A DNA stretch of 64,000 nucleotides from Lachnospiraceae bacterium (GTDB taxonomy: Bacteria > Bacillota > Clostridia > Lachnospirales > Lachnospiraceae). A program made the position numbers and the translations under genes. The stretch is taken from contig JAUNGD010000003.1 in assembly GCA_030524705.1 (NCBI GenBank), positions 1 through 64,000 on the forward strand, read 5' to 3'. Under the pieces are notes generated by a model. The model saw only the letters and a program-made list of their open reading frames with translations, made no database searches and was not told the DNA's origin. Below, piece after piece: positions 10,312 to 63,840 of the stretch (position 1 is the stretch's first letter; every line of letters starts with the position of its first letter).

Positions 10312-10456
10312 TCTCAAGCGGAAATTCTCTACTGCACAAGGCAGCAATCTCTTCCTTCTCAGGGCTGCAATTCCTCCGCTCCCTAATGCAGTAATCCCTC
10401 TGCTTCTCCGCGCGGCATTTCTCCACTTCCTAAGCCAATAACCCCTCTACTTCCTT
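10312..10456 (-). repeat. Degenerate 22-25-bp tandem repeat growing out of the trxA 3' end
   Basis: On the minus strand about six units resemble AGGAAGTAGAGGGGTTATTG, each beginning with purines (GGAAG.RGAG) and ending near TTGC.GC.TT. The first unit is the trxA 3' end (codons for K-E-V-E-G-L-L-A and the stop); the rest are non-coding and progressively diverged. No gene lies here. Confidence 0.6.
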
Positions 10457-10735
10457 ACGGTTCATCAAACCAAATCCGCGGTTGATGCATTCCCCGTCCT
10501 TAAAAACAAGGAGTGCCGGAATGGAAACCACACGATACTGCATTGCCAGATCCGGCAGCGCGTCCACATTCACCTTGCCGATACAATAAGCTTCTGCTTC
10601 CTGGTCAAGCTCCTCCAAAAGCGGTGCGATCGCTTTGCAGGGTCCGCACCAGTCCGCATAAAAATCCACCAAAACAGGCTTCTTTGCCTGTAAAACATCC
10701 TTTTCAAACTGTTCCTGATTCTCAATATTTAACAT
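10430..10735 (-). CDS. trxA: Thioredoxin
   Basis: 101 residues, the normal size for thioredoxin, a cytosolic disulfide reductase fed by thioredoxin reductase. The active site WCGPC has Cys30 and Cys33, and the cis-proline is Pro73 in [10 protein letters not shown]. The ATG at 10735 follows AGGACGGAAG at a slightly long spacing. It is a single gene with its own promoter. No trxB is nearby. The last codons are repeated in degenerate form downstream. Confidence 0.95.
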
Positions 10736-10831
10736 AAGCTTCCGTCCTTTCCTGTTGTCATATCTGCCCTTAAACGGCTTGTCTTCTGTTTAGCGTCCCC
10801 TTATCCTTTCCCAAATATTCTCCCTTGTTAC

Positions 10832-10862
10832 ATTATACCTCAATTTCTGTATCTCTGTACAA
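10832..10862 (-). promoter_or_regulatory. trxA promoter
   Basis: TATAAT at 10832-10837 and TTGTAC at 10857-10862, with a long 19-base spacer on the minus strand. Confidence 0.5.
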
Positions 10863-10882
10863 CATTTTTTGCCGTTATACGC

Positions 10883-10912
10883 TTGCACAATCTTCGCCTC
10901 CTATGCTACTAT
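10883..10912 (+). promoter_or_regulatory. larC promoter
   Basis: TTGCAC at 10883-10888 and TACTAT at 10907-10912 with an 18-base spacer, about 30 bases before the larC start. Confidence 0.55.
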
Positions 10913-10943
10913 GAAAAAAGTCTATCAAAGGAGTTTAATAAAA

Positions 10944-12230
10944 ATGAGCCAAACAATCTTATATCTGGAATGCAGCTCCGGCATCAGCGGGGACATGTCC
11001 GTTGCAGCTCTGCTTGATCTTGGAGCAGACCGTAAGGTATTGACAAGCGCGCTTGCAAGCCTCCCGCTGTCCGGGTATTCCATAGAAATAAAAGATGTTC
11101 TGAAATCCGGTATCCGTGCCTGTGATTTTCATGTTATTCTTGAAAAGGATAACCATGATCATGATATGCAGTATCTGCACGGCTCCTCATCCATACCCGG
11201 GGAGCATACGCACACAGAGCATACACACCCGGAACATCACCACGCGCACTCCCACCATGATGCCCGGAACCTCAATGATATTATTGAGATTATCCAGGCA
11301 GGTATCCTAACGGATTCCGCCCGTGAACTGGCGATTCGGATTTTCCATATTCTTGCAGAAGCAGAAGCCTTTGTACACGGTAAAAGCATCGAAGAAGTGC
11401 ATTTCCATGAGGTTGGAGCCGTCGATTCCATCGTCGATATTGTGGCTTTTGCCGTGTGCCTCGATAATCTGCAGCCGGACCGCATTGTTGTTTCCGCTCT
11501 GACCGACGGCACCGGGCAAATACGGTGTCAGCATGGCCTAATTCCTGTGCCTGTTCCGGCAGTTACCGCCATTGCTTCGATTCACGGGCTGCCGCTGAAA
11601 ATATCCGCTGTGGAGGGTGAGCTTGTTACCCCGACGGGCGCCGCCATTGCTGCCGCACTGATGTCTGATGAAAAGCTTCCGTCAGAATTTCGCATTCTGA
11701 AAACTGGCTTCGGCGCCGGAAAACGGGATTATGCGACCGCCGGTTTTCTCCGTGCAATGCTGCTGAGGCCTGTCAAGGAAGAAATGCATGACACAATCCT
11801 GACGCTGGAAACCAACATTGATGACTGCACCGGAGAAGCACTTTCGTTCACTATGAAACAGCTTCTGGAGGCCGGCGCATTAGACGCCTTTTTCGTCCCC
11901 ATTTATATGAAAAAAAATCGCCCCGCACAGCTTCTGAAGGTCATCTGCAAGCCCGAAGACCGTCAAAAAATGGAAGCTATCATTTTCCGAAATACAACGA
12001 CCATCGGTATCCGTATTCAGGAATTACAGCGCACCAAGCTGGAGCGCCGCATCCTGGCTGTTGAAACTCCCTGGGGAATGGCAGACGTCAAGTGCTGTGC
12101 CTACGGAGAGGATACGTACTATTATCCTGAAAACGACAGCGTATGCCAGCTTGCCCAGCTTGCAGGATATGGATTTTCTGAGATGTACAGTATGATCCAG
12201 GCTTACGTCCGGCAGCACGTCTCCGTGTAG
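10944..12230 (+). CDS. larC: Nickel-pincer cofactor nickel insertase LarC
   Basis: 428 residues. LarC inserts nickel into the pyridinium-bisthiocarboxylate mononucleotide to complete the cofactor of lactate racemase-type enzymes. The N-terminal signature YLECSSGISGDM at about 7-18, the His-rich loop at about 71-106 (runs of H-x-H and HHH), and VHFHEVGAVDSI at about 166-177 are all family marks. Here larC1 and larC2 are one continuous frame, whereas in some lactobacilli a programmed frameshift joins them. The start ATG at 10944 follows AAAGGAG. No larA, larB or larE lies in the window, so it is an orphan here. Confidence 0.93.
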   Translation: MSQTILYLECSSGISGDMSVAALLDLGADRKVLTSALASLPLSGYSIEIKDVLKSGIRACDFHVILEKDNHDHDMQYLHGSSSIPGEHTHTEHTHPEHHHAHSHHDARNLNDIIEIIQAGILTDSARELAIRIFHILAEAEAFVHGKSIEEVHFHEVGAVDSIVDIVAFAVCLDNLQPDRIVVSALTDGTGQIRCQHGLIPVPVPAVTAIASIHGLPLKISAVEGELVTPTGAAIAAALMSDEKLPSEFRILKTGFGAGKRDYATAGFLRAMLLRPVKEEMHDTILTLETNIDDCTGEALSFTMKQLLEAGALDAFFVPIYMKKNRPAQLLKVICKPEDRQKMEAIIFRNTTTIGIRIQELQRTKLERRILAVETPWGMADVKCCAYGEDTYYYPENDSVCQLAQLAGYGFSEMYSMIQAYVRQHVSV

Positions 12231-12244
12231 TGTCTGATATAACA

Positions 12245-12283
12245 TAAGGGATGCATCAAAACAGATTGAAGCATCCCTTACTA
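12245..12283. terminator. Hairpin after larC
   Basis: TAAGGGATGC (12245-12254) pairs with GCATCCCTTA (12271-12280). The following T-run is weak, so termination is likely but not certain. Confidence 0.6.
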
Positions 12284-12371
12284 TTGAATATATAAATACT
12301 GTTTTATTAATTTGTCATAAATTTCCTGAGCGAAACGAAGCTTCCGACTGCCAGGCATGCTCTCTGGCGTA

Positions 12372-12632
12372 ATACAAAAAATTCATACTGCTTTTTACCA
12401 TTATTTTCTGCCTGCTTTTACCATATTTCTTTTACTGCATTTCTTTTCTACATTTCCTACTAGCTTTTACTATATTTCCCCGTATCTCTTGCCTGCTCTT
12501 ATTATATTTCCTTTCCGTATTTTCTGTCTGCTCTTACTGCATTTCTTTTCTGTATTTTCCATCTCCGCCTTATCATCGTTTCTGCCCGCTCATGCTTATT
12601 CCAGGATACATTTCCAAGCCTCCAACAGCCGC
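12372..12632 (-). repeat. Degenerate 34-bp tandem repeat downstream of the deoxyinosine glycosylase gene
   Basis: Read on the minus strand, from inside the last codons of the gene ending at 12596 the sequence repeats a purine-rich unit of about 34 bases with the pattern RAAATRYRGAAARGAAATR and then TAAGAGCAGRCAG, at least five times with increasing decay. The first unit contains the gene's stop codon. Between larC and this gene (12284-12595) there is nothing else. Confidence 0.6.
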
Positions 12633-13087
12633 TCCAGAGAATACGCCGCATTCGCCGGGCTCGTTGAAGGCAACCCAATGATCTCTCTTTGACAACTCTT
12701 TTGCTGAAATTTTTCAAAAAGCTTCTTGGCCGTATTTCCGTTCGCGTAAATCTGACGGATGTCGGCCCCATTCAAAATCGGTTCCAGAGCCATCGGAACA
12801 ACATTTTTGATACTGCTGTCGCTAGAGCCTATGATATCGCATTCCGAAATGACATCGGAAATCGCAATATGCTGTCCCAGCAAAAGCGACTTTTTCTCCT
12901 CAATGCTTTGCGGGACCGGCTGGTTCGTCAGCGCGGCGATCACCCTCCAAAACCGGTTTTGCGGATGTCCGTAATAAAACATCTGCTCTCTGGATTTCAC
13001 CGAGGGCAGGCTGCCCAATATCAGAATTTTGCAGTCCTTATCATAAACCGGCGGAAATTCATGTTTTACTCTTTGATACTCCCCCAT
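12596..13087 (-). CDS. DNA-deoxyinosine glycosylase (uracil-DNA glycosylase superfamily)
   Basis: 163 residues of the family 6 (hypoxanthine-DNA glycosylase) type, which removes deaminated bases from DNA. The motif KILILGSLPSVKSREQ at about 20-35 followed by YYGHPQNRFWRV is the family's conserved N-terminal region, and LPSTSPANA near 139 is the C-terminal motif. The ATG at 13087 overlaps the stop codon of the thioesterase gene upstream, so translation is coupled. Confidence 0.88.
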   Translation of the reverse strand: MGEYQRVKHEFPPVYDKDCKILILGSLPSVKSREQMFYYGHPQNRFWRVIAALTNQPVPQSIEEKKSLLLGQHIAISDVISECDIIGSSDSSIKNVVPMALEPILNGADIRQIYANGNTAKKLFEKFQQKSCQREIIGLPSTSPANAAYSLERLLEAWKCILE

Positions 13088-13566
13088 TAGAATCCCTCAT
13101 TTCGACGTGTTTTCCGAAGCTCAGCCCGTTTTCGGCCCGCTTCCCACTCAATCTGCTGCGTTACACCTTCCACGATCAATCCCGGAACCTCCACCGGCCT
13201 CTGATTTTCATCTGTTCCCACCATAACAAAGTATGCGCGGTTGATCATTGTGCGCGTGCCGTCCAGTTCCTCGGCGTAGGTGTCAATGCGAACCTCCATA
13301 GACGACCTTCCCACATGGGTCAGACGTCCAATCAGAACGATCGTATCATTCACCTTTGCTCCAGACTTAAAGTACATATTGTCAACTGCCACTGTCACCA
13401 CATTCATTTCTGCGTGACGTTTTGCCACGATCCCGGCAGTTTCGTCAATCCACGAAAGGAGCTGACCGCCAAACAGATACCCCGCAGCATTCAGACAGCG
13501 CGGCATCAGCAAATGCGACTGCTCCGCCATGGAATCTTCTACCCGTTTCATTTTTCTCTCCGCCAT
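13087..13566 (-). CDS. Acyl-CoA thioesterase, hotdog fold
   Basis: 159 residues of the YciA/BFIT-like hotdog thioesterase group, which hydrolyse acyl-CoAs in the cytosol. Conserved text includes NAAGYLFGGQLLSWID at about 26-41 (the G-x-x-F/L-GG-x-L...D catalytic helix) and MYFKSGAKVNDTIVL. I chose the ATG at 13566, which has AGAGGAGG upstream; a frame open further upstream lacks support. It overlaps the next gene by one base. Confidence 0.88.
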   Translation of the reverse strand: MAERKMKRVEDSMAEQSHLLMPRCLNAAGYLFGGQLLSWIDETAGIVAKRHAEMNVVTVAVDNMYFKSGAKVNDTIVLIGRLTHVGRSSMEVRIDTYAEELDGTRTMINRAYFVMVGTDENQRPVEVPGLIVEGVTQQIEWEAGRKRAELRKTRRNEGF

Positions 13567-13703
13567 AATCTGCCTCCTCTGCAACATCATGGGCGGTGCC
13601 GATGAAAGCACCGCCCATCCGAACTGGCAATACAGCCTTATACATTGCCAGGCTACTGTTTATTATACTATTACCATGCAAAAAAACAAGAACAGATTGC
13701 CTT

Positions 13704-14402
13704 TTATGAATCATTTTCTGTTTCTGGCAGAACGTTTCCACGAATCAGTCGCTCACGGATATCCAGTGTTTTTTCTGTAACAAAACAGGGAAAATACCAG
13801 ATTGCAACTCCGGCCTTTTCTGCTTCCCTCAAGGCTTCACCAAACCCGGGATCCACAGTCAGATTCGGAAGTACTTCTGTGACGCCCTCCATCGGAATAA
13901 CGAAAGCAATGATACTGTGATATCCGTTATGCACTGCTTTTACCAGCTCTTTCACGTGACGCCGCGCCCTCTCGCTGGGAGCATCCGGGAAAAATCCTCT
14001 TCCGCCAAGCTCTAACGTACATCCCTTGACTTCCATCAGGTATTTCTTCCCATCCTGCTCCATATAAAAATCTATCCGCGATTCGCCGTACATATATTCC
14101 GGTTTGATATACGAATAATCCTGCTGCGCCAGCCACTCACCTACAACCTTATTGGGCGCCAGACTGTCAATATTGACCCATCCCAGCTTCTCCTTATATA
14201 CACCGATCAGATCGTATTTTGTTTTCCGCTTCGGATTATCCGATACCGCCAGTATCACCTCAGCTCCCGGAAGTAATAATTCTTTGCAGCGTCCGGTATT
14301 TTTCACGTGGACTGTCTCAAGCCTTCCGCCGATCCAAACCTGCGCAATGAACCGATTTTGCCTAACCGCAAATTTTCCTTGAATTACATGCTCGTATTTC
14401 AT
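13704..14402 (-). CDS. sfsA: DNA/RNA nuclease SfsA
   Basis: 232 residues, full length for SfsA. The N-terminal OB-like part (GKFAVRQNRFIAQV) is followed by VKNTGRCKELLLPGAEV, a hallmark, and by a PD-(D/E)xK-type core (IDFYME...YLMEVKGCTL). E. coli SfsA was first linked to sugar fermentation and later described as a nuclease; the cellular role is unclear. It is flanked by low-complexity spacers and probably transcribed alone. Confidence 0.93.
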   Translation of the reverse strand: MKYEHVIQGKFAVRQNRFIAQVWIGGRLETVHVKNTGRCKELLLPGAEVILAVSDNPKRKTKYDLIGVYKEKLGWVNIDSLAPNKVVGEWLAQQDYSYIKPEYMYGESRIDFYMEQDGKKYLMEVKGCTLELGGRGFFPDAPSERARRHVKELVKAVHNGYHSIIAFVIPMEGVTEVLPNLTVDPGFGEALREAEKAGVAIWYFPCFVTEKTLDIRERLIRGNVLPETENDS

Positions 14403-14403
14403 T

Positions 14404-14622
14404 CTGCCGTTCCTCTGTCAATCTGATGCTGCCCCGCTCTCTTACAACTTTTCTGCCCTTTTGCAATCCTTCTTACCTTCTGCCATCTTTCGGCAGCCTT
14501 ACGGGCCTTCTGCTCTTCCGCAAATGCTCTGTTCTTTTAAAGACCTTCTGACCTTGTACTGTTCCCTCGTTTTCTTACCATCTCATTTTCTTTAGCCTCA
14601 TTATAATACTTTTCCTCCGCTT
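14404..14622 (-). repeat. Purine-rich degenerate repeats between thiC and sfsA
   Basis: The minus strand is built from 24-30-base units starting GGCAGAA or GAGCAGAA, each followed by GTAAG-like text, from the thiC stop to the sfsA start; the start codon of sfsA is itself preceded by GGCAGA. No ribosome binding site, promoter or gene is evident. Confidence 0.45.
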
Positions 14623-15933
14623 TTACAAAATATCAATATATTCTCCTGCCAGGGCCTTGTTCATGCTGCGCACAGCACAAAACTTCCCGCACATACTGCA
14701 GGTATCGCTGTGGTCATCCTCAGGCAGCCGGTCATCGCGGATCGCCTTTGCAGTCTTCGGATCCAACGCGCAGGCAAATTGTGCATCCCAGTCCAAAATC
14801 CGCCGTGCATCCGCCATTTTATCATCAATATCTCTTGCCCCCGGCACACCCTTCGCAATGTCCGCCGCATGAGCCGCTATCTTTGAGGCAATGATCCCCT
14901 GCTTCACATCCTCCACATTCGGAAGAGCCAAATGCTCTGCCGGCGTCACATAGCACAAAAAGGCCGCACCGCTCATCGCAGCCACCGCGCCGCCGATGGC
15001 CGCCGTAATATGATCGTATCCCGGAGCAATATCTGTCACCAGCGGGCCAAGTACATAGAAAGGTGCTCCCATACAAATGCTCTTCTGCACCTCCATATTT
15101 GCCGCCACCTGATTCAGCGGTACGTGTCCCGGACCTTCCACCATCACCTGTACATTGTGTTCCCAGGCGCGCTTTGTCAGCTCCCCGAGGCGAACCAGCT
15201 CTTCTATCTGGCACACATCCGTGGCATCCGCAAGGCAGCCCGGTCTGCAGGCATCTCCCAACGAAATCGTGACGTCATGCTCCTCACATATTTCCAGAAT
15301 TTCATCATAATATTCATAAAAAGGATTCTCCTCTCCCGTCATGCTCATCCAGGCAAAAACGAGGCTTCCTCCCCGGCTGACAATATTCATTTTGCGCTTA
15401 TGCTTTCGAATCTGTTCAATTGTTTTTCTCGTGATACCACAGTGCAGAGTCACAAAATCCACACCGTCCTCTGCATGAAGTCGCACCACATCAATAAAAT
15501 CCTTCGCTGTCAGCTCGGCCAGATCCCGCTGATAATGAATAACGCTGTCGTATACCGGTACCGTTCCGATCATAACCGGGCATTCCGCGGTAAGCTTTTG
15601 CCTGAAGGGCTGCGTATTTCCATGACTGGATAAGTCCATGATCGCTTCCGCTCCCAGGTTCACCGCGCTCATGACCTTTTCCATTTCGACGTTATAATCC
15701 TTGCAGTCCCTGGACACTCCGAGATTCACATTGATTTTTGTACGGAGCATACTTCCGATTCCTTCCGGGTTCAGGCATTTATGATGCTTGTTGGCCGGAA
15801 TAGCGGCCTTCCCCTCCGCCACAAGCTGCATAAGCTTCTCCACCGGCATATTCTCCTTCTTAGCAACCGTTTCAATCTGCGGGGTTACAACGCCTCTTCT
15901 TGCTGCATCCATTTGTGTTGTGTACTTTTCCAT
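14623..15933 (-). CDS. thiC: Phosphomethylpyrimidine synthase
   Basis: 436 residues, the short clostridial form. A radical-SAM enzyme that rearranges aminoimidazole ribotide to hydroxymethylpyrimidine phosphate for thiamine. [10 protein letters not shown] near 70-79, SHGNTQPFR and VEGPGHVP are conserved. The C-terminal iron-sulfur cysteines read CSMCGKFC, with three residues between the second and third Cys rather than the four in the common CSMCGPKFC form. The start ATG at 15933 follows GGAGGAAG. A TPP riboswitch with terminator controls it. No other thi gene is adjacent. Confidence 0.96.
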
Positions 15934-16071
15934 TTCCGCTTCCTCCATTCTTCAAACCTTGCAACTGTTTTCTGCCGCGGCAGTAGATGGTGTGCCCAAT
16001 CTGCCGTCTGTAACGTACCAAGCCTAAAAAGAATATGCCGCTGAGCATCTGTTATCAGAAAATTTCCTGCA

Positions 16072-16107
16072 ACAAAAAAGAAGATACCCGCAGGTATCTC
16101 CATCTTC
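16072..16107 (-). terminator. Riboswitch terminator of thiC
   Basis: On the minus strand GAAGATGGAGATACC pairs with GGTATCTTC around TGCG and is followed by six T's. Confidence 0.85.
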
Positions 16108-16117
16108 TCATGGTGTT

Positions 16118-16203
16118 ATTTCCCTACGTTGGCATTATCCAAATCAGGTTATGGGTCGAAACCAATCAGTTTCCTCTCAGCCGACTTCAGTCAGCTCCCC
16201 TTT
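16118..16203 (-). promoter_or_regulatory. TPP riboswitch (THI element)
   Basis: The minus strand reads GGGGAGC, then GGCTGAGAGG, GACCC, AACCTGATTTGGATAATGCC and AACGTAGGGAA, the complete conserved thi-box core including CUGAGA and the ACCUGAU/AAUGCCAGCGUAGGGA-type elements. It lies between the promoter and an intrinsic terminator, so thiamine diphosphate should switch off thiC by premature termination. Confidence 0.96.
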
Positions 16204-16216
16204 TCATTACTTTATT

Positions 16217-16245
16217 ATCATACATCAATCTTTTGTTTTTTTCAA
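16217..16245 (-). promoter_or_regulatory. thiC promoter
   Basis: TTGAAA (16240-16245) and TATGAT (16217-16222) with a 17-base spacer on the minus strand. Just upstream, ACCC.CTTTTCGTCT.YTGTAATT-like text occurs twice (16253-16275, 16289-16313), another degenerate spacer repeat. Confidence 0.7.
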
Positions 16246-16351
16246 TAGCGCAACCCACTTTTCGTCTATTGTAATTGTTGTTATGATTGTAACCCGTTTT
16301 TCGTCTGCTGTAATTCCGGCGCTCGCTCCTCCTTACCTGCTTTTATCCGTT

Positions 16352-16609
16352 CTATATACTCTCCATATGAAGATATTTTTCTTTCGTGGCCTGGCCGCCG
16401 CGTATGTGCCGCTCCTGTTTATTGACATCGAGTACCGATCGGACCTGACCAGCCAGGGAGGGGTTGAGCTGCCCAAGGCGTTCCGTGACATCTTTATGTA
16501 CCGTACTCTTACTCACCCCAAACCTCTTTGCCGTTTCACGCACCGTTGCATTGTTCTCTACAATATAAACAGCTATGTTCAATACCCGCTCTTCTATGTA
16601 ATCTTTCAA
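16352..16609 (-). CDS. spoIIID: Sporulation transcription factor SpoIIID
   Basis: 85 residues, the normal length. SpoIIID is the small mother-cell regulator that acts after sigma-E and before sigma-K. EERVLNIAVYIVENNATVRE at about 6-25 and the helix-turn-helix KRFGVSKSTVHKDVTERL at about 28-45 are almost invariant in the family, as is the basic tail HIRGGQATKEKY. It stands alone between thiC and the M56 peptidase gene. Confidence 0.96.
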   Translation of the reverse strand: MKDYIEERVLNIAVYIVENNATVRETAKRFGVSKSTVHKDVTERLGQLNPSLAGQVRSVLDVNKQERHIRGGQATKEKYLHMESI

Positions 16610-16726
16610 GGATGTTCCCCCGAGAAAGCCGTTTTTACAATGTATGCGGAAAATCTAACGGGTATGAGTTGAACTGATTTTCCTTGCGACTTGCTTCGCC
16701 ACACGATTTCTGTTTCTTACCTGAAA

Positions 16727-19283: not shown

Positions 19284-19309
19284 ATCCGCTTTTCCTCCTT
19301 AGTATTTAT

Positions 19310-19379
19310 ACTACTGCAATAGTTTGCATTTCTATACTATCACAGTAGTTTCCCCGTGTCAATACACTATTGCAGTAGT
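19310..19379 (-). promoter_or_regulatory. Promoter and three BlaI-type operators
   Basis: Palindromes ACTACTGCAATAGT (19310-19323), ACTATCACAGTAGT (19336-19349) and ACTATTGCAGTAGT (19366-19379) share the form ACTAN(6)TAGT. The promoter is TTGACA (19357-19362) and TAGTAT (19334-19339) with a 17-base spacer on the minus strand. One operator covers the -10, one lies just upstream of the -35 and one just downstream of the start. Confidence 0.88.
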
Positions 19380-19431
19380 TTATGTGAGAAATACCAATGC
19401 TTCTACTGCTTACGCCGATCTCAGCTTAGAA

Positions 19432-19515
19432 CAAAAGTGTGCTTCGCACACCCTCGCGCTTTCATTTTCTTTCAGGAAGCACACTTTTGCTGCATCGTTG
19501 CACAAAGTACTTTTT
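19432..19515. repeat. Palindromic dispersed repeat, copy B
   Basis: Perfect 14-base arms CAAAAGTGTGCTTC (19432-19445) and GAAGCACACTTTTG (19476-19489), with CGCACACCCTCGCG after the first arm, then TTGCACAAAGTACTTTTTATG-like text to 19517. It shares landmarks and order with copy A at 5829-6060. A further hairpin (CACGCT/AGCGTG) follows. Confidence 0.65.
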
Positions 19516-19571
19516 ATGTTATATGGAAAGAATTTTCACGCTCTAGCGTGGCACGGTCTTTCCTATGACAT

Positions 19572-19611
19572 AAAAAAGAACCGGCAGATATTTCCCAAAG
19601 AATACCTGCCG
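19572..19611 (-). terminator. Terminator of the MATE gene
   Basis: On the minus strand CGGCAGGTATTC and AATATCTGCCG pair, followed by GTTCTTTTTT. Confidence 0.8.
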
Positions 19612-19699
19612 ACCTCTGTTTTCCTTCATATCATATTCGTTTTTAATCAATACTTTTTATGCTCTGTCATTTCTCCTTATTCCATCGCTTTTCCATCCT

Positions 19700-25408: not shown

Positions 25409-25479
25409 TGCTGCTACGACCTTTCTCTCACAATTTTATCATACGTAATATCCTCCGGCCTGTTTTCGCCGACGCTCCT

Positions 25480-25508
25480 ATTATAATCGTTCCCCCTACC
25501 GAAGTAAA
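25480..25508 (-). promoter_or_regulatory. Promoter of the minus-strand XRE gene
   Basis: TTTACT (25503-25508) and TATAAT (25480-25485) with a 17-base spacer on the minus strand. Confidence 0.6.
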
Positions 25509-25511
25509 GAT

Positions 25512-25606
25512 TTTTCCTGTCCTGCTTCCGCGCGGCGCTAGTCTTCTCTTCTGCCTCCGTGCGATACTGTTCTCCCAGCCCATTTCCGCACGGCGCGGTT
25601 CCTATT
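25512..25606 (-). repeat. Degenerate ~30-bp purine-rich tandem repeat after the SGNH hydrolase gene
   Basis: On the minus strand three units begin GCGCCGTGCGGAA, TCGCACGGAGGC and GCGCCGCGCGGAAGC and end in GGAGAA or GGAAAA-like text, from the SGNH hydrolase stop codon to the next promoter. Confidence 0.45.
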
Positions 25607-40147: not shown

Positions 40148-41122
40148 TCACAGCTGATACTTCCGATACAGCTCCTCCCGGTACGATTCATCTGCCGCTG
40201 CACGCAAAAGCTCCTGCGTCCTTCCCTCCTGCAAAAGCTTTTGTGTGAGCCCTGCAAAACGCTTTTCGCCCTCTGCCATACCCGTTTTTATTCCTTCTTT
40301 TATTCCTTCTTCCCTTCCCTCATCTCTCACCGAACGCATATGCCGTTCCTCATCGTATTCATAAATGCTCACACTTTTCGCCTCCGCTCTGTATTTTCTG
40401 AGAAAATCTGCCAGAATATCCTCCGCAATACACTCTGTAACCGCCTGTTCGACTGCATCCTCCAGGCTCATTTTCTGAGCATAGGTTCGAACCCGATGCG
40501 TATATTCTGAATAATCCCGCAGTATTTTACATGCTTCCAATAGCTTTTCATTATGTCCCGGATTGATATTGAGTATCACAGCCTTTAGCTCCAGGGAAGG
40601 TTCTTCTTCCGGCACCGTATACAGATCCGATAGCCTGAGCACCTCCACATCGGGCCGTTCTTCCGCTCCGTTATAAAAAATCACAAATCTTGGCGTGGGA
40701 ATTCTGACTGCTTCCGTCCCGTAAAGATTTTCATCCTTTGTAATTACGCAATACAAGTCTGATATATACATCAGACACCTGAGGGAGAGATTCGGACTAT
40801 AGGTGGACTGATGCTCATACAAGGTCAGCCTGGAATCAATGATAAACGATAAATCGTTCCGCATTGACATATAAATAGCATTTTCCAGCGTATTGATCTC
40901 CAGCAGCTCCGGGTCCGCGTAATCTGTCCCGTTCATCGCATTATACAATTCCAGCAATTCTTTCTTCTGACTGAATATCATTTCAAACAATCTCGCCTTG
41001 TAAATACGGTTTGCAAAGGGGGGATCCGCAATTCCTTCTATCCGCTTTCCTGCCGGACCTGCTTCCTTTCCCCTGACTGTTTGCTTTTTAAGTGTGTTAC
41101 TTACGTGCTCTTTTCTTTTCAC
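40148..41122 (-). CDS. Rpn family recombination-promoting nuclease / putative transposase
   Basis: 324 residues. The PD-(D/E)xK core is seen in YMSMRNDLSFIIDSRLTLYE followed by HQST (D...E-x-Q type) near 85-110, and VRIPTPRFVIFYNG is a typical Rpn/YhgA strand. The C-terminal part carries G-x-x-E-G repeats (EGREEGIKEGIKTG), also typical. Rpn proteins are DNA endonucleases linked to RecA-independent recombination, and phase-variable defence roles have been proposed. The start is the GTG at 41122 with AAAGGAGG; upstream frame is unsupported. Confidence 0.85.
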   Translation of the reverse strand: MKRKEHVSNTLKKQTVRGKEAGPAGKRIEGIADPPFANRIYKARLFEMIFSQKKELLELYNAMNGTDYADPELLEINTLENAIYMSMRNDLSFIIDSRLTLYEHQSTYSPNLSLRCLMYISDLYCVITKDENLYGTEAVRIPTPRFVIFYNGAEERPDVEVLRLSDLYTVPEEEPSLELKAVILNINPGHNEKLLEACKILRDYSEYTHRVRTYAQKMSLEDAVEQAVTECIAEDILADFLRKYRAEAKSVSIYEYDEERHMRSVRDEGREEGIKEGIKTGMAEGEKRFAGLTQKLLQEGRTQELLRAAADESYREELYRKYQL

Positions 41123-52235: not shown

Positions 52236-52413
52236 CATTTTCTTCAGATAGCTCTCCACCGAAATCCGATGACAGTCATGTGGTTTTTCACCGCATGCCC
52301 AAGAAAACAGTCTTCGGAACTGCCTTCTTTCGGCGTTCTCCCCTTTCCACAGCGTTCATCTGTGCCCGAACACATCCTGCTGCTTACTATTGAATCACGC
52401 AACCTCTATCAAT
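52236..52413 (-). promoter_or_regulatory. Lysine riboswitch (L-box)
   Basis: The minus strand contains GAGGTTGCG, AGTAAG, GGGGAGAACGCCGAAAGAAG, CTTGGGCATGCGGTGAAAAA, ACTGTCATCGGA and GGTGGAGAGCTATCTGA, the conserved L-box elements in order, between a promoter and an intrinsic terminator. Lysine should terminate transcription before dapA. Confidence 0.93.
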
Positions 52414-52428
52414 CTCAAAATTTATCTT

Positions 52429-56606: not shown

Positions 56607-56642
56607 ATAAGAGCTGCTGTTTTATCAACCGGCTTTTTCTTT

Positions 56643-56931: not shown

Positions 56932-57157
56932 TCTGAGAATGCATGTTTATAATTTTTCATAGACTTTGCCCCTTAACCTACAAAACAGATTTTCTTTTTT
57001 CTGTTAATTTGCAAAGTCCCAGGATAGTACTGTTACTCCACGCCGCCCTATCCTAAAAGACCTTGCATGGAGCTGATGCAATACACAATTTCATTTTCTC
57101 ATCTTTTCCTTCAGATCATATACCTGCAGCGGTCAAAATATCCCGGACAGGTCTCTT

Positions 57158-57682: not shown

Positions 57683-57712
57683 CCTTCATTCCTCCGTTTT
57701 ATCTCAAAATAA

Positions 57713-57830
57713 ATCTGGCGTTCCTGTCCAAAGAACATTTTCCGCAAAAAGGCCTTCGCTGCAACAAACTCCTTCGCAAAAAAGCTTTCTCCGCAAAAGA
57801 ACCTTCTCTGAAAAAACCTTCTCCACACAC
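57713..57830 (-). repeat. Degenerate 17-bp tandem repeat before the nitroreductase gene
   Basis: On the minus strand about six units of the form GGAGAAGGYTYTTTTGC follow each other (GTGGAGAAGGTTTTTTC, AGAGAAGGTTCTTTTGC, GGAGAAAGCTTTTTTGC, and so on). They fill the leader between the promoter and the nitroreductase start. Confidence 0.65.
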
Positions 57831-57863
57831 AAACCGCGAATCAGTAAAATCCATCTGTTTCCA

Positions 57864-57892
57864 AGTCTACAACGAAATAAACAGCATGTCAA
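57864..57892 (-). promoter_or_regulatory. Nitroreductase promoter overlapping the rarD stop codon
   Basis: TTGACA (57887-57892) and TAGACT (57864-57869) with a 17-base spacer on the minus strand. The -35 includes the TGA stop of rarD (57889-57891). Confidence 0.65.
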
Positions 57893-58785
57893 ATACTTAC
57901 CTCTGCTTTATTTCTCATCAGCCTCAGCTTATCATACACCGTAAAAAGAACCCCGATCCAAATGATCACAAAAGCAATCAGCCTGTTCTGATCTAGCTCT
58001 TCTTTAAAATAAAACAGCCCCATTAAAAACTGCAGCGTCGGATTAATATACATCAATATACCAGATATGTAATAGGGGATCTGTCTGACTCCGCGGTTAA
58101 ACATCAGCAGCGGCACCGATGTGATGATCCCGCAGGCCGGCAGCAGCAAAAGCTGTGCTCCCTGCAGTATCCCAATGCTGCCCGCTCCCTTCGCATCCGC
58201 ATACACCGCGAACAACAGCGCAAAAGGAGTCATGCAAAGCGTCTCCATAAACAAAGAGGTATGCGGAGTAAGCTTCAGTGTCTTCTTAACAGCCCCGTAT
58301 ACGGCAAAAGACCCCGCAATCAAAAGAGCCAGAACCGGGAAGGTCCGCGTCGCCGCGATCATATAGGCAAGACCTGCGACTGAAAAAACAAAAGTAATCT
58401 TTTCCAATTTGCTGAGGCGCTCCCGGAACACCAGCATTCCGATCGCTCCCACCAGAACGGGTTCCAGAAAATATCCGAGGCTTGCATCCAATACGTGGCC
58501 GCTGTTAACCGCGAAAATATAGACGCCCCAATTAATCGTAATCAAAATTCCGCAGACAAAACAGATTGCAAGCTCCCTTCTGCTTTTAAAAACCTCCGCA
58601 ATTTCTTTCCATTTATGCAGCACCGCCATATAAATCCCCATAAACACCATCGACCAGATAATCCTCTGGGCCAGTATATACAGGGAATCGACCTCCCCCA
58701 GCAGATTCCAGAATATGGTCAGCACTCCCCAGCAGGCATATGCAAACGCCACGCTTATAGAGCCCCATGTCGTTTTCTTTTTCAT
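57889..58785 (-). CDS. rarD: EamA family transporter RarD
   Basis: 298 residues with ten membrane helices. The RarD marks include AFAYACWGVLTIFWNLL at about 13-29, LGYFLEPVLVGAIG near 105, and GILMYINPTLQFLMG near 240. The family transports amino acids or drugs, and the original name refers to chloramphenicol resistance, which is not established here. Start ATG 58785 follows GGAGGAG. Confidence 0.93.
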   Translation of the reverse strand: MKKKTTWGSISVAFAYACWGVLTIFWNLLGEVDSLYILAQRIIWSMVFMGIYMAVLHKWKEIAEVFKSRRELAICFVCGILITINWGVYIFAVNSGHVLDASLGYFLEPVLVGAIGMLVFRERLSKLEKITFVFSVAGLAYMIAATRTFPVLALLIAGSFAVYGAVKKTLKLTPHTSLFMETLCMTPFALLFAVYADAKGAGSIGILQGAQLLLLPACGIITSVPLLMFNRGVRQIPYYISGILMYINPTLQFLMGLFYFKEELDQNRLIAFVIIWIGVLFTVYDKLRLMRNKAEVSI

Positions 58786-58830
58786 TTTCTCCTCCGTATC
58801 CTTTCCATTATTTTTAAGCGTTTATCCTCC

Positions 58831-59529
58831 TCAGAACCAGCGGAAAGCAATTTTCCATTCCCCCGGCTTCCGAAGCAAACTCTCATACTCCTCCACTGTC
58901 AGCACCCCTTTCAGCTCCTCCATTTCGTCCTCATCCACCACAGCATGCAGGCAGTCCGAAAAACAAAGCTTCGGATAAAGAACACACCACCAATTATGCC
59001 CCTTTGCTTCACCAAGGCTGATGCGAAGTGCCTTATACCATCCCGCGGGAAACGTACAGTCCCCATAGGTGCGGTCTGGAAAATAGCAGGTTGTAAGAGC
59101 TGCTTCGGCATGATAATCTACATTTTGTTCTGCAAGCACACGATCCGCAATCTGCTCAATTTCCTCCAGATGCAAGGTCAGAAACTGCTCCATCGCTGCT
59201 TTTTCCTCCGGTTCTGAGCCGGATTCTGCTAATGCTGCCCCCTTATACTCCGTCTCCGCTAATTCTATTATTTCCTGCCCCGCTTCCGTTCCTTGCCCGG
59301 TTTCTGCTTCCTGCATCCACCTGAGCACTTCATCCCGAACCATATATTTTATTTCCTGGTCCCGGTCGCTGTCACTGTTGGCGAGAACGTGAAAACGCAG
59401 CACCTCTTCGGCAATTCCCTGCTGCAGAACCGCCCGGTGCGCCGCTGACACTCCGAAATTTAAAATAAGCGCAAAAACAAGGATCGTAAACCAGGTACTT
59501 TTCTGTAAAGCTTTGATGATCTGAAACAT
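58831..59529 (-). CDS. spoIIR: Stage II sporulation protein R
   Basis: 232 residues. SpoIIR is secreted from the forespore and triggers SpoIIGA to process pro-sigma-E. A single N-terminal membrane segment (STWFTILVFALILNFGVSA) is followed by VLRFHVLANSDSDRDQEIKY, the family hallmark, and by YGDCTFPAGWYKALRISLGE and GHNWWCVLYPKLCF. Start ATG 59529 has GGAGGG nine bases upstream, but this site lies in a hairpin. Confidence 0.95.
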   Translation of the reverse strand: MFQIIKALQKSTWFTILVFALILNFGVSAAHRAVLQQGIAEEVLRFHVLANSDSDRDQEIKYMVRDEVLRWMQEAETGQGTEAGQEIIELAETEYKGAALAESGSEPEEKAAMEQFLTLHLEEIEQIADRVLAEQNVDYHAEAALTTCYFPDRTYGDCTFPAGWYKALRISLGEAKGHNWWCVLYPKLCFSDCLHAVVDEDEMEELKGVLTVEEYESLLRKPGEWKIAFRWF

Positions 59530-59532
59530 AAT

Positions 59533-59566
59533 AGGCAACCCTCCTGTCCTTTCAGGAGTGTTGCCT
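59533..59566 (-). promoter_or_regulatory. Hairpin that buries the spoIIR ribosome binding site
   Basis: AGGCAAC.CTCCTG and CAGGAG.GTTGCCT pair with one mismatch around a six-base loop. The 3' arm holds the GGAGGG site of spoIIR. As the hairpin is also just after uraA, it may reduce read-through translation. Confidence 0.6.
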
Positions 59567-59598
59567 GTATTTCTTTCTCTATTCAGAATTGCCGCAAA

Positions 59599-60867
59599 TT
59601 AATCCTTCAGCACGGCGTCCTCACCTTCTGGAAGGACAAGGGCAAGAATGATTCCCACAACGGCCGCCAGAGCCAGGCCGGAAATGGTCACCGTCTCCGT
59701 TACCGGAATGCTGTCACAGCCAATTCCCAGCACAAGCACAATCGCAGCAATCATAAGGTTCCTGCTGTTGCCAAAATTCAGCCTTTCATTTACAAGAATT
59801 CTCACTCCGACGGAGGAAATCATACCGTACAGCACGATACTGATACCCCCGATAACCGGCCCCGGAATACTGGTGATCACAGCCCCTACCTTGCCGAAAA
59901 TACCCAGGAGAATCGCAAAAACTGCCGCAATACGAATAACCGATGGATCATAGTTCTTCGTCACCGCAAGGACGCCCGTATTCTCGCCGTACGTCGTGTT
60001 GGCAGGGCCGCCCAGCAGACCGGCCAGAGCCGTTGCCAGGCCGTCTCCGAGAAGCGTTCTGTGAACGCCCGGATCCACCATGAAATTCTGTCCTGTAACT
60101 GCACTGTTGGTAGTAATGTCACCCACATGCTCTACCATTGTGACCAAGGCAATGGGCGCGATGGCCAGAACCGCATCCGCCCTGAAAACCGGCATGCAGG
60201 TAAGCTGCTCCATAATTCCTTTATCCATAAAGGAGAAAACTGCCGCGCTTCCCACAGACGAAAAATCACAGAATCCCATAAAATAACTGATGATATATCC
60301 TACGATAATTGCAAACAAAATCGGCATCAGATTGAAAATACCCTTTGCAAAAATGGAAACCAGAACGACCGTCAAAAGCACGCAGACCGTTACAAAAACT
60401 GCTTTTAAATCAAAATTTCCGTTCACATAAAACGCATTGTTGATCGCTGAAGAGCTCAGCCGCAGGCCGATCACAATAATCACCGGCCCTGTAACAATGG
60501 GCGGAAGCACCTTGTTGACCTTCTCATACCCCACCAGCTTAATTATAAGAGCAAATACAACGTACACCAGACCAGCAATAATCAAACCGCCCTTTACCGC
60601 TGACAGTTTTTCAATAAAATCAGGATCCCCCGCACGGGAATCGCCGATCACCGCCATGATGCCTCCCATAAATGCAAAGCTGGAACCAAGAAATACCGGC
60701 ACCTTGCGCTTTGTCACTAAATGGAAAAGAAGTGTTCCAAGCCCCGCACAGAACAGTGTAATCGAAGTATTAAGCCCTGTCAGTGCAGGTACCAGAACCG
60801 TTGCCCCAAACATCGCCAGCACATGCTGAATGCCAAGAATCAGCTTCTGTCCCGTTGATTTTCCCAT
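59599..60867 (-). CDS. uraA: Uracil/xanthine permease family protein, probable uracil permease
   Basis: 422 residues with 14 membrane segments. MGKSTGQKLILGIQHVLAMFGATV and TNSAVTGQNF-type motifs are conserved (VEHVGDITTNSAVTG near 236-250, then GGPANTTYGENTGVLAVTK), as in UraA/PyrP. It imports uracil or a related nucleobase with protons. Start ATG 60867 follows AGGAGAGAG. It lies upstream of spoIIR on the same strand. No PyrR site was recognised. Confidence 0.9.
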   Translation of the reverse strand: MGKSTGQKLILGIQHVLAMFGATVLVPALTGLNTSITLFCAGLGTLLFHLVTKRKVPVFLGSSFAFMGGIMAVIGDSRAGDPDFIEKLSAVKGGLIIAGLVYVVFALIIKLVGYEKVNKVLPPIVTGPVIIVIGLRLSSSAINNAFYVNGNFDLKAVFVTVCVLLTVVLVSIFAKGIFNLMPILFAIIVGYIISYFMGFCDFSSVGSAAVFSFMDKGIMEQLTCMPVFRADAVLAIAPIALVTMVEHVGDITTNSAVTGQNFMVDPGVHRTLLGDGLATALAGLLGGPANTTYGENTGVLAVTKNYDPSVIRIAAVFAILLGIFGKVGAVITSIPGPVIGGISIVLYGMISSVGVRILVNERLNFGNSRNLMIAAIVLVLGIGCDSIPVTETVTISGLALAAVVGIILALVLPEGEDAVLKD

Positions 60868-60923
60868 ATTTTTTCTCTCTCCTTTTTCTTTTGAACCTTC
60901 CCTATAAGACGCTCATTCTCTCA

Positions 60924-61775
60924 CTATTTATCCTTTACGCTCAAAAGCTGCAGAACTGCCAGCGCTCCCTCCAGATACGGATTTTCCGCTTCGTCAAACG
61001 CTCCGGCGTCTGAAAGCTCTGTAAGCTTCGGATCAATCGGCACTTTGCCAAGAACCGCCACGCCAAGCTCCTGGGAAACCTCGTCTATCTTGCTTTTACC
61101 GAAAACCGGAATCTCCTTTCCGCAATCCGGGCATTTCAAATAGCTGTAATTCTCAATCATTCCCAGCACCGGAATATTCATGGCAGATGCCATATTGTAA
61201 GCCTTCTTGACAATCATCTTAACGAGATCCTGGGGTGAGGTCACGATCACGATGCCGTCCACAGGAAGGGACTGGAACACTGTAAGCGGCACATCGCCGG
61301 TTCCCGGAGGCATGTCCACAAGAAGATAATCCAGTTCCCCCCAGATGACATCCTTCCAGAACTGTTTTACCATATTTGCCAGCACCGGCCCCCGCCAAAT
61401 CACCGGCGTCTCTGGATCCGGCATCAAAAGATTGATGGACATGACCTTTATATCATTGTTTGTCAAAACAGGATAGATCCCCTCGTCATCCGCCATTGCC
61501 GGGCCTTCCAACCCATACATCCTCGGAATAGACGGACCTGTGATATCCGCATCCATGATACCCACACGGTATCCCTTCGACGCCAGTAAATTTGCCAGCG
61601 ATGCCGTCGCCATGGATTTTCCTACGCCGCCTTTTCCGCTGACAACTCCTATCACATGTTTTACCTCTGAATAAACGTTCAGCTCCTCAAGAAAGCTCTG
61701 CGGTTTTCCCGCGCTGGGACATCCCTCACAGCTCTCCTTGCTGCAGCCTGAACTGCTGCATGATTTTTCTGCCAT
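60924..61775 (-). CDS. apbC: Mrp/ApbC-type iron-sulfur carrier ATPase
   Basis: 283 residues. P-loop ATPase that carries or inserts Fe-S clusters: deviant Walker A VSGKGGVGKS near 45-54, VDMPPGTGD, and the CPDC pair at 215-218 that holds the bridging cluster between two subunits. The N-terminus is short and Cys-rich (SCSSSGCSKESCEGC), replacing the DUF59 domain of longer Mrp proteins. Start ATG 61775 follows AGGAGG. Single gene with its own promoter. Confidence 0.93.
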   Translation of the reverse strand: MAEKSCSSSGCSKESCEGCPSAGKPQSFLEELNVYSEVKHVIGVVSGKGGVGKSMATASLANLLASKGYRVGIMDADITGPSIPRMYGLEGPAMADDEGIYPVLTNNDIKVMSINLLMPDPETPVIWRGPVLANMVKQFWKDVIWGELDYLLVDMPPGTGDVPLTVFQSLPVDGIVIVTSPQDLVKMIVKKAYNMASAMNIPVLGMIENYSYLKCPDCGKEIPVFGKSKIDEVSQELGVAVLGKVPIDPKLTELSDAGAFDEAENPYLEGALAVLQLLSVKDK

Positions 61776-61817
61776 ATCAGCACCTCCTAATAACTACATA
61801 CTGTACACATTTCAACT

Positions 61818-61846
61818 ATTCTATACCAAATATACATACAGTGCAA
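61818..61846 (-). promoter_or_regulatory. apbC promoter
   Basis: TTGCAC (61841-61846) and TAGAAT (61818-61823) with a 17-base spacer on the minus strand. Confidence 0.7.
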
Positions 61847-61882
61847 GGTGTTTTTCTACAAACAGGACACCATTTACACATA

Positions 61883-63673
61883 TCAGAAATCTGCATTTCC
61901 TTCCTCCAGAAGCTTTCGCAGATACCTTCCCACTACTCTGGAAAAGCTTTCAATATTTCTGATGTACGCAAAGTCCTTACCGAAGATTTTTTTCTCTGCC
62001 ATCAGATCCTTTTCCCTGCCGGTGAACACTCCCAGGACACATACTCCGCTGCTGCGCAGCCGTCGCACTTCAAAAGCCGTGTCCTTTACCGCATAATCTC
62101 CATAATATGGCTTTGGATTTCTGCTGTTCGGCCTGTTGACAATGATGTCATTCGGTTTTCCGTCACTCAGTACAATTAATATCTTCCCTTCTTCTCCCCG
62201 CTGGAGAAGAGAATCACCCGCCGCCCGTATTGCAAGGCCGTCGCGGTTGTTCGAGGAGGTCACAAAATCAAGGATCCGCAGATTATCCTCCCGGGGCGCA
62301 TCGTATTCCCGGAATCTCTGCAAGATCGTATAATCCCAGAAGCTGCAAAAGCTCATGATCCGGTGCGGAACATGATTGTTGCTGAGGGCTTCGCTGATAA
62401 TATAAGCCTGCAGAGCCACCTGACTCTGACGGTCGCGCTGTGAACCGCTGGCATCCATCAGAATATCCACAACAAACTCAGAATTATTTCTGCGGTTTGT
62501 TTTTACAAACAGCTTGCCAGGGTCTTCCTTTCGCCCCACCTTCCACAAAAGCCTGGGAACGATCGCTCCCGACCAGGCCATACTGTCCTCCGGCTCGCTC
62601 CGGCGGTTCAGGGAACGCTTCAATTCATCTGTCAGCTGCTCAATATTCCGCGCAAGCATATTGCGGCTGTTGCGGAACATGACCTTATTTTTTTCGGCAT
62701 GGCGCCGGGCATTGACAAACTGTGCATTCGTCAGAACCGGATTCTGCAGTATCCCGTCTGTCAGATAAAGGCTGCAGTCTACATGGGCGCCGCGGCACAA
62801 ACGCTGATTCAGCCGTTTCTGCTCCGTCTCAGATAGGTAAGAACGGCCATAGTTCAGCTCTATATAGGAATACATCTTTGCTGCGGCCTCTTCCGTAATT
62901 ACAACAATCTTCTGCTTCCCTTTCTGCTTTTTTTCTTCCTCCGCTTCGTCCTGCTCCTCGTTTAAAACCGTCACCTGACTGTTCACCTTATTCAGATACT
63001 GCTCCAGCATATCTTCTGTCATTTCCTCTTCCAGGAAATCACTCCAGTCAAATTCCTTCAGATCCTCCATGGTCACCTCCAGCACATGCTGAAGCTCCCC
63101 GTGTTTTCGCACAAAGCTCTTGTCAATCAGCGTATTGTACAGCTCGTCCGCCGTCCGAATGATATCCATGATATCCTCCGTATCTTCTAACGCCACAATT
63201 TTTTGAACGGCCTCTTCAATCATTTTTTCGCAATGCCAGTTTCCCATCAGATAGCCCCGGATCATGGCAATTTTGATCCTGCCCGGCAAAGAACCGCTCA
63301 TTCGGTGAAAGGACAGGTCCAGCAAATCAGAAAATGCTTTTTCCCTGAGCTCCCATACACCGGGACGCTCCTGCGCAATCCTTCGGTACACGGCAGCATC
63401 CACACAGAGCTGAGCCAGCTCTGTCAGGGGCTGCTCCTGGGCGCCGTAATATACCTTTTTCACCATATACATAGCCAGCTCATTCCGGTCAAAATACCGT
63501 GCAAAGGCTCCCTGCTTCACAGCATCGTACATCGAAATATATTTAGAACGGGAGTAGGACTCCATATCCAGCTTCGTATCGAGCTGATAATTTCCGCTGA
63601 CCGTCCACATCAGATTTCGTATTCTGTTTTCCGCCTCCAGCTGCAGTTCCTCGTCATCATATATCAGCTCCAC
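61883..63673 (-). CDS. VWA-domain protein, NorD/CobT-like
   Basis: 596 residues. Helical N-terminal half, an acidic linker near 235-255 (NEEQDEAEEEKKQKGKQK), then a VWA domain with MIDAS DASGSQ at 407-412 and IVLSDGKPND near 512. This arrangement is that of nitric oxide reductase activation proteins (NorD) and CobT-like chelatase partners, which work with a MoxR-class ATPase. Start is the GTG at 63673 with GGGAGG 11 bases upstream. The partner is presumably the gene cut by the right edge. Confidence 0.85.
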   Translation of the reverse strand: MELIYDDEELQLEAENRIRNLMWTVSGNYQLDTKLDMESYSRSKYISMYDAVKQGAFARYFDRNELAMYMVKKVYYGAQEQPLTELAQLCVDAAVYRRIAQERPGVWELREKAFSDLLDLSFHRMSGSLPGRIKIAMIRGYLMGNWHCEKMIEEAVQKIVALEDTEDIMDIIRTADELYNTLIDKSFVRKHGELQHVLEVTMEDLKEFDWSDFLEEEMTEDMLEQYLNKVNSQVTVLNEEQDEAEEEKKQKGKQKIVVITEEAAAKMYSYIELNYGRSYLSETEQKRLNQRLCRGAHVDCSLYLTDGILQNPVLTNAQFVNARRHAEKNKVMFRNSRNMLARNIEQLTDELKRSLNRRSEPEDSMAWSGAIVPRLLWKVGRKEDPGKLFVKTNRRNNSEFVVDILMDASGSQRDRQSQVALQAYIISEALSNNHVPHRIMSFCSFWDYTILQRFREYDAPREDNLRILDFVTSSNNRDGLAIRAAGDSLLQRGEEGKILIVLSDGKPNDIIVNRPNSRNPKPYYGDYAVKDTAFEVRRLRSSGVCVLGVFTGREKDLMAEKKIFGKDFAYIRNIESFSRVVGRYLRKLLEEGNADF

Positions 63674-63703
63674 AGTCCCGCATTCCTCCCTTCTCTTCCG
63701 TCA

Positions 63704-63840
63704 TCGTATATCCCCCGCAGCGCCGCACGTTGTTTTTCCTTGCTTTCTCCATACATCATCCGCAGCGCTGCACCTTGTCTTTCCCTGCCGCCGCCATAGC
63801 GGACTTGCTGCGCCGAACCTTGCTTTCCCGCTCCGTTCTT
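63704..63840 (-). repeat. Degenerate 45-bp tandem repeat upstream of the VWA gene
   Basis: Three units of about 45 bases on the minus strand, each with GGGAAAG(A/C)AAGGTKCRGCGC-like text followed by TGCGG or TCCGC and a TAT or TAC end. They start at the stop codon of the partial gene at the right edge. Confidence 0.55.

Follow-up and report, generated by a model that had tools for sequence, protein, structure and literature searches.

Degenerate tandem arrays in intergenic spacers of a Lachnospiraceae bacterium and their likely growth by short tandem duplication

Introduction

Tandem units in bacterial intergenic DNA are known from minisatellite (VNTR) loci and from the MIRU elements of mycobacteria; the latter adjoin stop codons and have a sequence common to many intergenic loci of one genome. 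The spacers described here lie in a 64,000-nucleotide stretch of a Lachnospiraceae genome (the window). They resemble minisatellites in possessing tandem units of approximately 10–100 bp beyond chance (four of six spacers, 0/1000 shuffles each), in the locus-private sequence of the two spacers tested, and in an array length which changes between close relatives. They differ in that the window arrays are old and degenerate, with 67–84% matches by TRF, and in that some arrays here take in the end of the upstream gene together with its stop codon. With MIRUs they share the position of intergenic tandem units beside stop codons, whereas the two spacers tested here are without a second copy.

E. 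coli topA mutants acquire de novo head-to-tail tandem duplications, which in galK are 2–19 bp long and are described as independent of existing repeats (PMC6954433). The duplications considered here are likewise head-to-tail and of new units, but these reach the 120-bp limit of our search. Replication slippage between short repeats, the mechanism which we favor, has also been invoked for small variable segments of bacterial genomes in work comparing genomes within three species, the subject of which, in the portion available, is not degenerate spacer arrays (PMC2884548). Slippage-generated minisatellites are already known, and the process of spacer growth is an ordinary one. A search of open-licence papers by title and start of abstract revealed, among the matches listed, none on spacers grown from gene 3′-ends.

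Results

Six spacers between genes on the minus strand had been predicted, from the sequence alone, to consist of degenerate tandem repeats. The main test compared the gapped self-alignment score of each, over its exact predicted extent, with those of 1000 dinucleotide shuffles. The prediction stood for four spacers, the periodicity of which was reproduced by 0/1000 shuffles: 10312-10456 after trxA (self-score 53), 12372-12632 beside the glycosylase gene (54), 57713-57830 (37), and 63704-63840 (46). The array at 14404-14622, after thiC, is unsupported (self-score 21; 203/1000 shuffles as high) and that at 25512-25606 is marginal (self-score 21; 23/1000). A stricter, ungapped test covered 38 window spacers without gene ends, using 100 shuffles. 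The score was reached by 0/100 for 12231-12595 and 63674-63840, 1/100 for 57683-57888, 2/100 for 25409-25601, 5/100 for 9929-10429 (where the trxA array lies within a spacer of 501 bp), and 11/100 for 14403-14622. Three spacers absent from the original prediction (4624-5124, 15934-16351, and 19284-19699) also scored above all 100 ungapped shuffles.

At a reporting threshold of score ≥50, TRF revealed arrays at 10355-10453 (period 47, 2.1 copies), 12382-12442 overlapping 12415-12456, 12493-12559, and 57729-57824, together with a 12-mer at 40286-40311; the periods vary between spacers. Rfam identified three riboswitches in the window, none of them on an array. The features are listed in Table 1.

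Table 1. Arrays, spacers, and neighboring genes of the window
Feature	Coordinates	Strand	Basis or remark
guaA (GMP synthase), downstream neighbor of trxA spacer	8384..9967	-	NF000848, 776.9 bits, over cut-off
Promoter-like TTGCCA-N17-TATAAT before guaA	10240..10268	-	far side of grown spacer
trxA array, ~3 decayed ~47-bp units	10314..10453	-	self-score 53; units cut by eye
trxA (thioredoxin), donor of first unit	10430..10735	-	TIGR01068 over cut-off; Pfam Thioredoxin
larC, convergent neighbor of glycosylase gene	10869..12230	+	TIGR00299 over cut-off
Arrays of ~35, 23, and 14 bp in convergent larC/glycosylase spacer	12382..12559	-	TRF; self-score 54; ungapped 0/100
DNA-deoxyinosine glycosylase gene	12596..13087	-	TIGR04274, 132 bits, over cut-off
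Spacer after thiC, array unsupported	14404..14622	-	203/1000 shuffles as high
Spacer, array marginal	25512..25606	-	23/1000 gapped; 2/100 ungapped over 25409-25601
~17-bp array between EamA transporter and nitroreductase genes	57729..57824	-	TRF score 74; neighbors by Pfam
45-bp duplication 3′ of AAA ATPase gene stop	63707..63788	-	ungapped score 39; 0/100 ungapped, 0/1000 gapped
AAA ATPase gene stop	63841-63843	-	AAA_5

The spacers after trxA and the glycosylase gene had further been taken for repeated copies of each gene's own end. This is borne out for trxA, where the last 24 nt including the TAG stop open the first unit of the array and recur in the spacer with 79% identity (score reached by 6/1000 plain shuffles), and not convincingly for the glycosylase gene, the end of which has a weak 9-base match (36/1000 shuffles as high). 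For none of five further gene ends was there recurrence beyond chance (98 to 553 of 1000 shuffles as high). When the trxA array is cut into 24-base pieces, pieces 0 and 2, which are 47 bp apart, are 79% alike (shuffled pairs: mean 57%, 99th percentile 67%). The adjacent pieces 0 and 1, at 58%, match no better than shuffles, which makes the case for a 24-bp period weaker than that for 47 bp; each ~47-bp unit may consist of two ~24-bp units. Of 748 genes, 9 have their last 36 nt repeated in the spacer downstream, whereas a repeat of the first 36 nt in the spacer upstream was seen in 0/808.

In the closest relatives, both orthologous spacers (trxA-guaA and larC/glycosylase) are shorter and without TRF arrays. 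From the trxA stop to the promoter-like box, a form of which is present in three of the four relatives checked, the distance is 13–21 nt in G023 and G002 and 164 nt here, with the array in between; the larC/glycosylase spacer, 365 bp long here, measures -4 bp in one of the two closest relatives and 47 bp in the other. Some species have an array at one orthologous spacer where others have none. The larC/glycosylase spacer of G022 and G011 holds other arrays, which the convergent spacer of the window genome (G000) does not match beyond shuffles (97 and 304 of 500 as high). The latter two arrays share a short A-rich local match, which 0/500 shuffles reach, and may be related to each other. Spacers also lengthen without visible repeats: in strain 1XD42-54 the trxA stop and the box are 152 nt apart without a TRF array (self-test 259/300 shuffles as high), and 364 bp without one separate the glycosylase gene from larC in G007.

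Comparison of G008, G012, and G013, which are close species represented by one genome each, reveals that the trxA-guaA array differs by indels of 19, 13, and 6 bp, as against 1–2 bp elsewhere. The arrays of these three end 11–36 nt upstream of the called guaA start; they could be under selection.

The copy search took in two of the four confirmed spacers, across 25 whole genomes. Neither has a second copy in its own genome, and among 24 sister species no convincing match was found, one spacer giving two short weak matches; at both, the array unit is private to its locus and lineage. At the EamA locus, searched in five genomes, the matches outside its own locus were of 22–26% identity, with no orthologous spacer to compare.

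Arrays with units of 10–120 bp were sought inside and outside genes. The period is a multiple of three in 113/128 arrays inside genes versus 30/84 outside (Fisher p about 1e-15); with both strands, the counts are 120/136 and 33/91. With contig-end arrays set aside, 17 arrays span stop codons versus 2 spanning start codons (p 0.0007); in control families stop-spanning arrays are not commoner than start-spanning ones (1 and 2, with 1 spanning both). Exact two-copy duplications of period ≥12 possess at least 3 bp of boundary identity in 20/35 genus cases, a feature in which they depart from the topA-mutant duplications as described (PMC6954433), although older decayed copies can inflate this microhomology. 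The comparison set, periods of 8–11, in which most repeats are expected to be due to chance, gave 5/98.

Array density, counted over 20–80 kb per sister genome, differs roughly tenfold between sister species. Genomes were labeled high or low at a cut of 9 per 100 kb, with G005 and G022 among the high and G015 and G009 among the low, and on the glycosylase tree this label changes 7 times (shuffled mean 6.5). Density as a clade trait was therefore rejected, the label not being clustered on this single-gene tree with 9/20 inner branches open. Density correlates with GC (Spearman 0.45, p 0.04, not corrected for kinship; 21/25 genomes with ≥40 kb sampled). Loss of repair genes was likewise rejected as the cause, since PolA, MutS1, RecJ, XseA, and RecD2 do not separate high from low. 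PolA is over cut-off in 25/25 genomes; its matches in G009, G014, G020, and G024 are incomplete or split, and one piece from G014 contains an in-frame TAG. MutS1 is over cut-off in 22/25 and below it in G008, G009, and G024, the match of G013 having one in-frame TGA. RecJ, XseA, and RecD2 exceed their cut-offs in 19/19 genomes searched of the 25. SbcC is uninformative (over cut-off in 0/19, any match in 18/19), the matchless genome being the high-density G005.

Discussion

Local duplication had been proposed as one mechanism of spacer growth, and the orthologous spacers, the change in array length, the frame filter, and the boundary microhomology speak for it; its gene-end component survives for trxA and is unconvincing for the glycosylase gene. 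We consider it likely that successive short tandem duplications, filtered by selection, lengthened the spacers, and that the arrays are tolerated scars, not functional elements. Short tandem duplications (units of 10–120 bp) would recur throughout the genome and lengthen spacers, most likely through replication slippage between short direct repeats, and point mutation would then decay the copies. Within genes, mainly in-frame events would survive. An event across a stop codon would do no harm, the stop being retained in the first copy, and the gene end could be copied outward into the spacer; events across a start codon or promoter would mostly be removed. If events survive by what selection tolerates, the arrays would therefore be mutational scars. 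Slippage as the molecular step and the neutrality of the arrays are what we infer from these patterns.

The original prediction had offered, as an alternative, a constraint keeping transcribed spacers purine-rich. Selection of this kind might build repetitive purine tracts, and five of the six named stretches, as cut, indeed have a gene-strand purine share of 0.66–0.74. In array-free co-directional spacers this share is 0.57–0.605 in nine genus genomes and 0.53–0.586 in five other families, and array spacers are rich in G003 (0.662, n=4, versus 0.585 without, n=31) and in one case from G016 (0.797). The array at 57.7 kb is not purine-rich, however (0.54 over 57683-57888), and the array spacers of G000 are no richer than the others (0.589, n=14, versus 0.605, n=151), with which G011 (0.562, n=7, versus 0.583) and G022 (0.576, n=1, versus 0.592) agree. 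Shuffles of unchanged composition likewise fail to yield the periodicity. The constraint is not needed, and we regard this explanation as very improbable.

A functional role, for example in setting how far the upstream stop lies from the following promoter or ribosome site, with selection acting on copy number, is somewhat easier to entertain, given how near the G008, G012, and G013 arrays lie to the guaA start. It nonetheless appears unlikely, as arrays come and go between species at one orthologous spacer and the trxA array of G000 is located on the upstream side of the promoter-like box. Insertion beside genes of a mobile or otherwise dispersed family of repeats, of MIRU or STAR type, would account for the stop-adjacent position in co-directional spacers, which resembles that of MIRUs; the periods which vary between spacers and the lack of a second copy of two spacers in their own genomes leave it hardly any credence.

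Growth by neutral tandem duplication alone leaves the difference in density between sister species unexplained. Conceivably, although we hold this to be doubtful, some species of the genus have, or had until recently, a heritable bias toward short tandem duplication, for example by way of a changed replication enzyme or topoisomerase I; such a bias would switch quickly on the tree. Were this true, spacers and in-frame protein repeats would grow several times faster in such species than in their sisters, and the approximately tenfold spread in density allows genome comparison to seek the cause of duplication-prone lineages. Orthologous spacers that carry arrays in some genomes and lack them in others, with a promoter-like box as the landmark in one, offer a clear case of the lengthening of bacterial intergenic DNA, and show that a spacer can grow out of the 3′-end of the preceding gene.

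Repetitive spacers in the window and in the genus

The genome under study (G000; 3.87 Mb, 145 contigs, 88% complete, with the window at G000:C126:1-64000) was compared with 24 genomes of the same genus and five control genomes of other families. The original prediction that at least six spacers of the window are built from degenerate tandem repeats is mostly right. Under a gapped self-alignment within the predicted limits, four spacers (10312-10456, 12372-12632, 57713-57830, and 63704-63840) outscored 1000 of 1000 shuffles of the same dinucleotide composition, so that their periodicity stands; the spacer at 14404-14622 does not exceed chance (203/1000 shuffles reach its score), and that at 25512-25606 is marginal (23/1000 as high). 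A repeat with 150 shuffles and other limits left the same four unbeaten, with values of 34/150 and 8/150 for the latter two. In an ungapped test excluding gene ends, where about 1% of spacers are expected to beat 100/100 shuffles, 25 of 182 did so in G000, 88 of 801 in the genus including G000, and seven of 149 in the control genomes; repetitive spacers are thus not confined to this genus, though they are more frequent in it.

Features located in the window
Feature	Position	Strand	Remarks
trxA array	10453 to 10314	minus	about three units of ~47 bp; Tandem Repeats Finder (TRF) period 47
azaaromatic (yjdF RNA) riboswitch	1365-1484	minus	Rfam gathering level
TPP riboswitch	16104-16211	minus	upstream of thiC; Rfam gathering level
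39-bp repeat pair	16252-16315		shares the spacer upstream of thiC with the TPP riboswitch
lysine riboswitch	52241-52416	minus	Rfam gathering level

The trxA array and its relatives

Cutting the trxA array by eye gave six pieces of 22-24 bp; the first piece consists of the 24 terminal nt of trxA, TAG stop included. The match is 79% between pieces 0 and 2 and 70-75% between several other pairs, but only 58% between pieces 0 and 1 (shuffled pairs: mean 57%, 99th percentile 67%); the 47-bp periodicity is therefore well supported, and a division of each unit into 24-bp subunits only suggested. The C-terminal TrxA residues of sister species G002, strain 1XD42-54 and sister species G011 (MNRKEIEALLQG, MNRNEVEALLQN, and TNRQELEALLA) resemble the 11 of G000. 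The copy inside the gene is thus the older, and copying went from the 3′-end of trxA into the spacer.

In 12 rows, including that of G000, guaA comes after trxA. Measured from the first nucleotide of the trxA stop codon, a promoter-like TTGyCA-N17-TATAAT box precedes guaA at 13 nt (G023), 21 nt (G002), 152 nt (1XD42-54) and 164 nt (G000); none was found in the G011 spacer. The stretch from stop to box in 1XD42-54 is no more repetitive than chance (259/300 shuffles as high) and no more similar to the G000 array than shuffles are (268/500 as high). TRF arrays with a score of at least 35 occur in this spacer in G008, G009, G012 and G013, and none in the other seven relatives; the same run missed the G000 array, which was detected on the opposite strand, and since TRF near its threshold depends on the strand, counts were redone on both. 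Among the close species G008, G012 and G013, the spacer is 88-94% identical, with indels of 19, 13 and 6 bp inside the array and 1-2 bp elsewhere.

The larC/glycosylase spacer

The convergent spacer between larC and the DNA-deoxyinosine glycosylase gene was measured in 18 rows, where G023 and S14_Bin4 have the same sequence. Its length is -4 bp in G002, 6 in G015, 47 in 1XD42-54 and 365 in G000; G007 (364 bp) and G005 (140 bp) have no array, and in four rows it reaches 965-1072 bp, where another gene may sit inside. Arrays with a score of at least 50 are present in G000 (35 and 24 bp), G022 (14 bp × 10) and G011 (23 bp × 5.5, beginning about 29 nt before the end of the gene), and a weak one (score 40) in G016. 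The G000 spacer matches those of G022 and G011 no better than shuffles do (97/500 and 304/500), while G011 and G022 have a short A-rich match in common (0/500 shuffles). Growth at this one location has thus occurred two or more times.

Across 25 whole genomes, 10266-10456 matched its own locus only, and 12372-12595 its own locus, 22 bases in G011 and 41 bases (84%) in G003. By these searches the DNA of both spacers is private.

At the glycosylase, the nearest three named records comprise two MAGs, one called Lachnospiraceae and the other Oscillospiraceae, and the strain "Bacterium 1XD42-54". The glycosylases of G008, G013 and G012 (loci L024, L025 and L021) carry an in-frame insertion of ~25-40 residues after FYGHPQNRFWK, at which no TRF array is listed.

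Frame, position and mechanism

Arrays (TRF score at least 50, period 10-120) were counted in 341 kb of G000 beyond the window, 20-80 kb per sister genome and 80 kb per control genome, mostly contig starts with genes called by a simple custom script. The period is divisible by three in 113 of 128 arrays inside genes versus 30 of 84 outside (109/124 versus 34/88 with a gene-score filter; 120/136 versus 33/91 on both strands). With six contig-end arrays set aside, 17 arrays span a stop codon and two a start codon; applying the gene filter and keeping contig ends gives 17 and five. The control genomes have one over a stop, two over a start and one over both. Array centers in co-directional spacers lie on the stop side of the middle in 11 of 14 cases in G000 and are spread in G003 (2/4 below the middle) and G011 (3/7).

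The earlier proposal that spacers grow through local duplication is judged right. Tandem duplication by slippage, then filtered by selection, explains the frame rule seen inside genes, the asymmetry between stop and start codons, and the private nature of the units. When exact two-copy duplications in the genus have a period of at least 12, 20 of 35 show at least 3 bp of boundary identity and eight none (controls: 6/8 with at least 3 bp), as against 5/98 at periods of 8-11, a range in which most repeats should be due to chance. Such microhomology is what slippage between short direct repeats should leave, although older copies can inflate it. The alternative, a constraint keeping spacers purine-rich, is not needed by the duplication account in G000; the four array spacers of G003 are purine-richer.

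Array density among species

Per 100 kb of non-coding DNA, arrays outside genes number 55 in G000, 72 in G003, G005, G011 and G022 together, seven in eight low genomes and 18 in the controls, the high and low sets having been chosen after the counts were seen. Heterogeneity over all 25 genomes, which involves no choice of sets, gives a chi-square of 88 (24 df, p 3e-9; some expected counts small), unchanged when both strands are counted. At a score of at least 60, density per 100 kb is 0 in G017 (52 kb), 1.7-2.5 in several genomes and 29 in G011; leaving out the four such arrays of the window, G000 retains 35 in 341 kb, a rate that their inclusion barely changes. One well-supported group spans 2.5 (G015), 6.4 (G009), 17.5 (G005) and 19 (G022).

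Slippage followed by selection fails to explain these differences, and none of the repair genes searched (PolA, MutS1, RecJ, XseA, RecD2 and SbcC) offers an explanation. Point mutants of E. coli topA are described as producing de novo tandem duplications (PMC6954433), which makes topoisomerase I a candidate gene. RecJ gave two or three match pieces within one open frame in 15 of 19 searched genomes, the break lying mostly around profile position 146-150, a pattern that may point to in-frame insertions particular to some lineages; G008, listed as 98% complete, had no MutS1 match over the cut-off.

The arrays belong to a known class, the bacterial minisatellites, and are for the most part old and decayed here. 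What is worth keeping is the direct view of a spacer growing from the end of its own gene, and the sharp contrast in array density among sister species.
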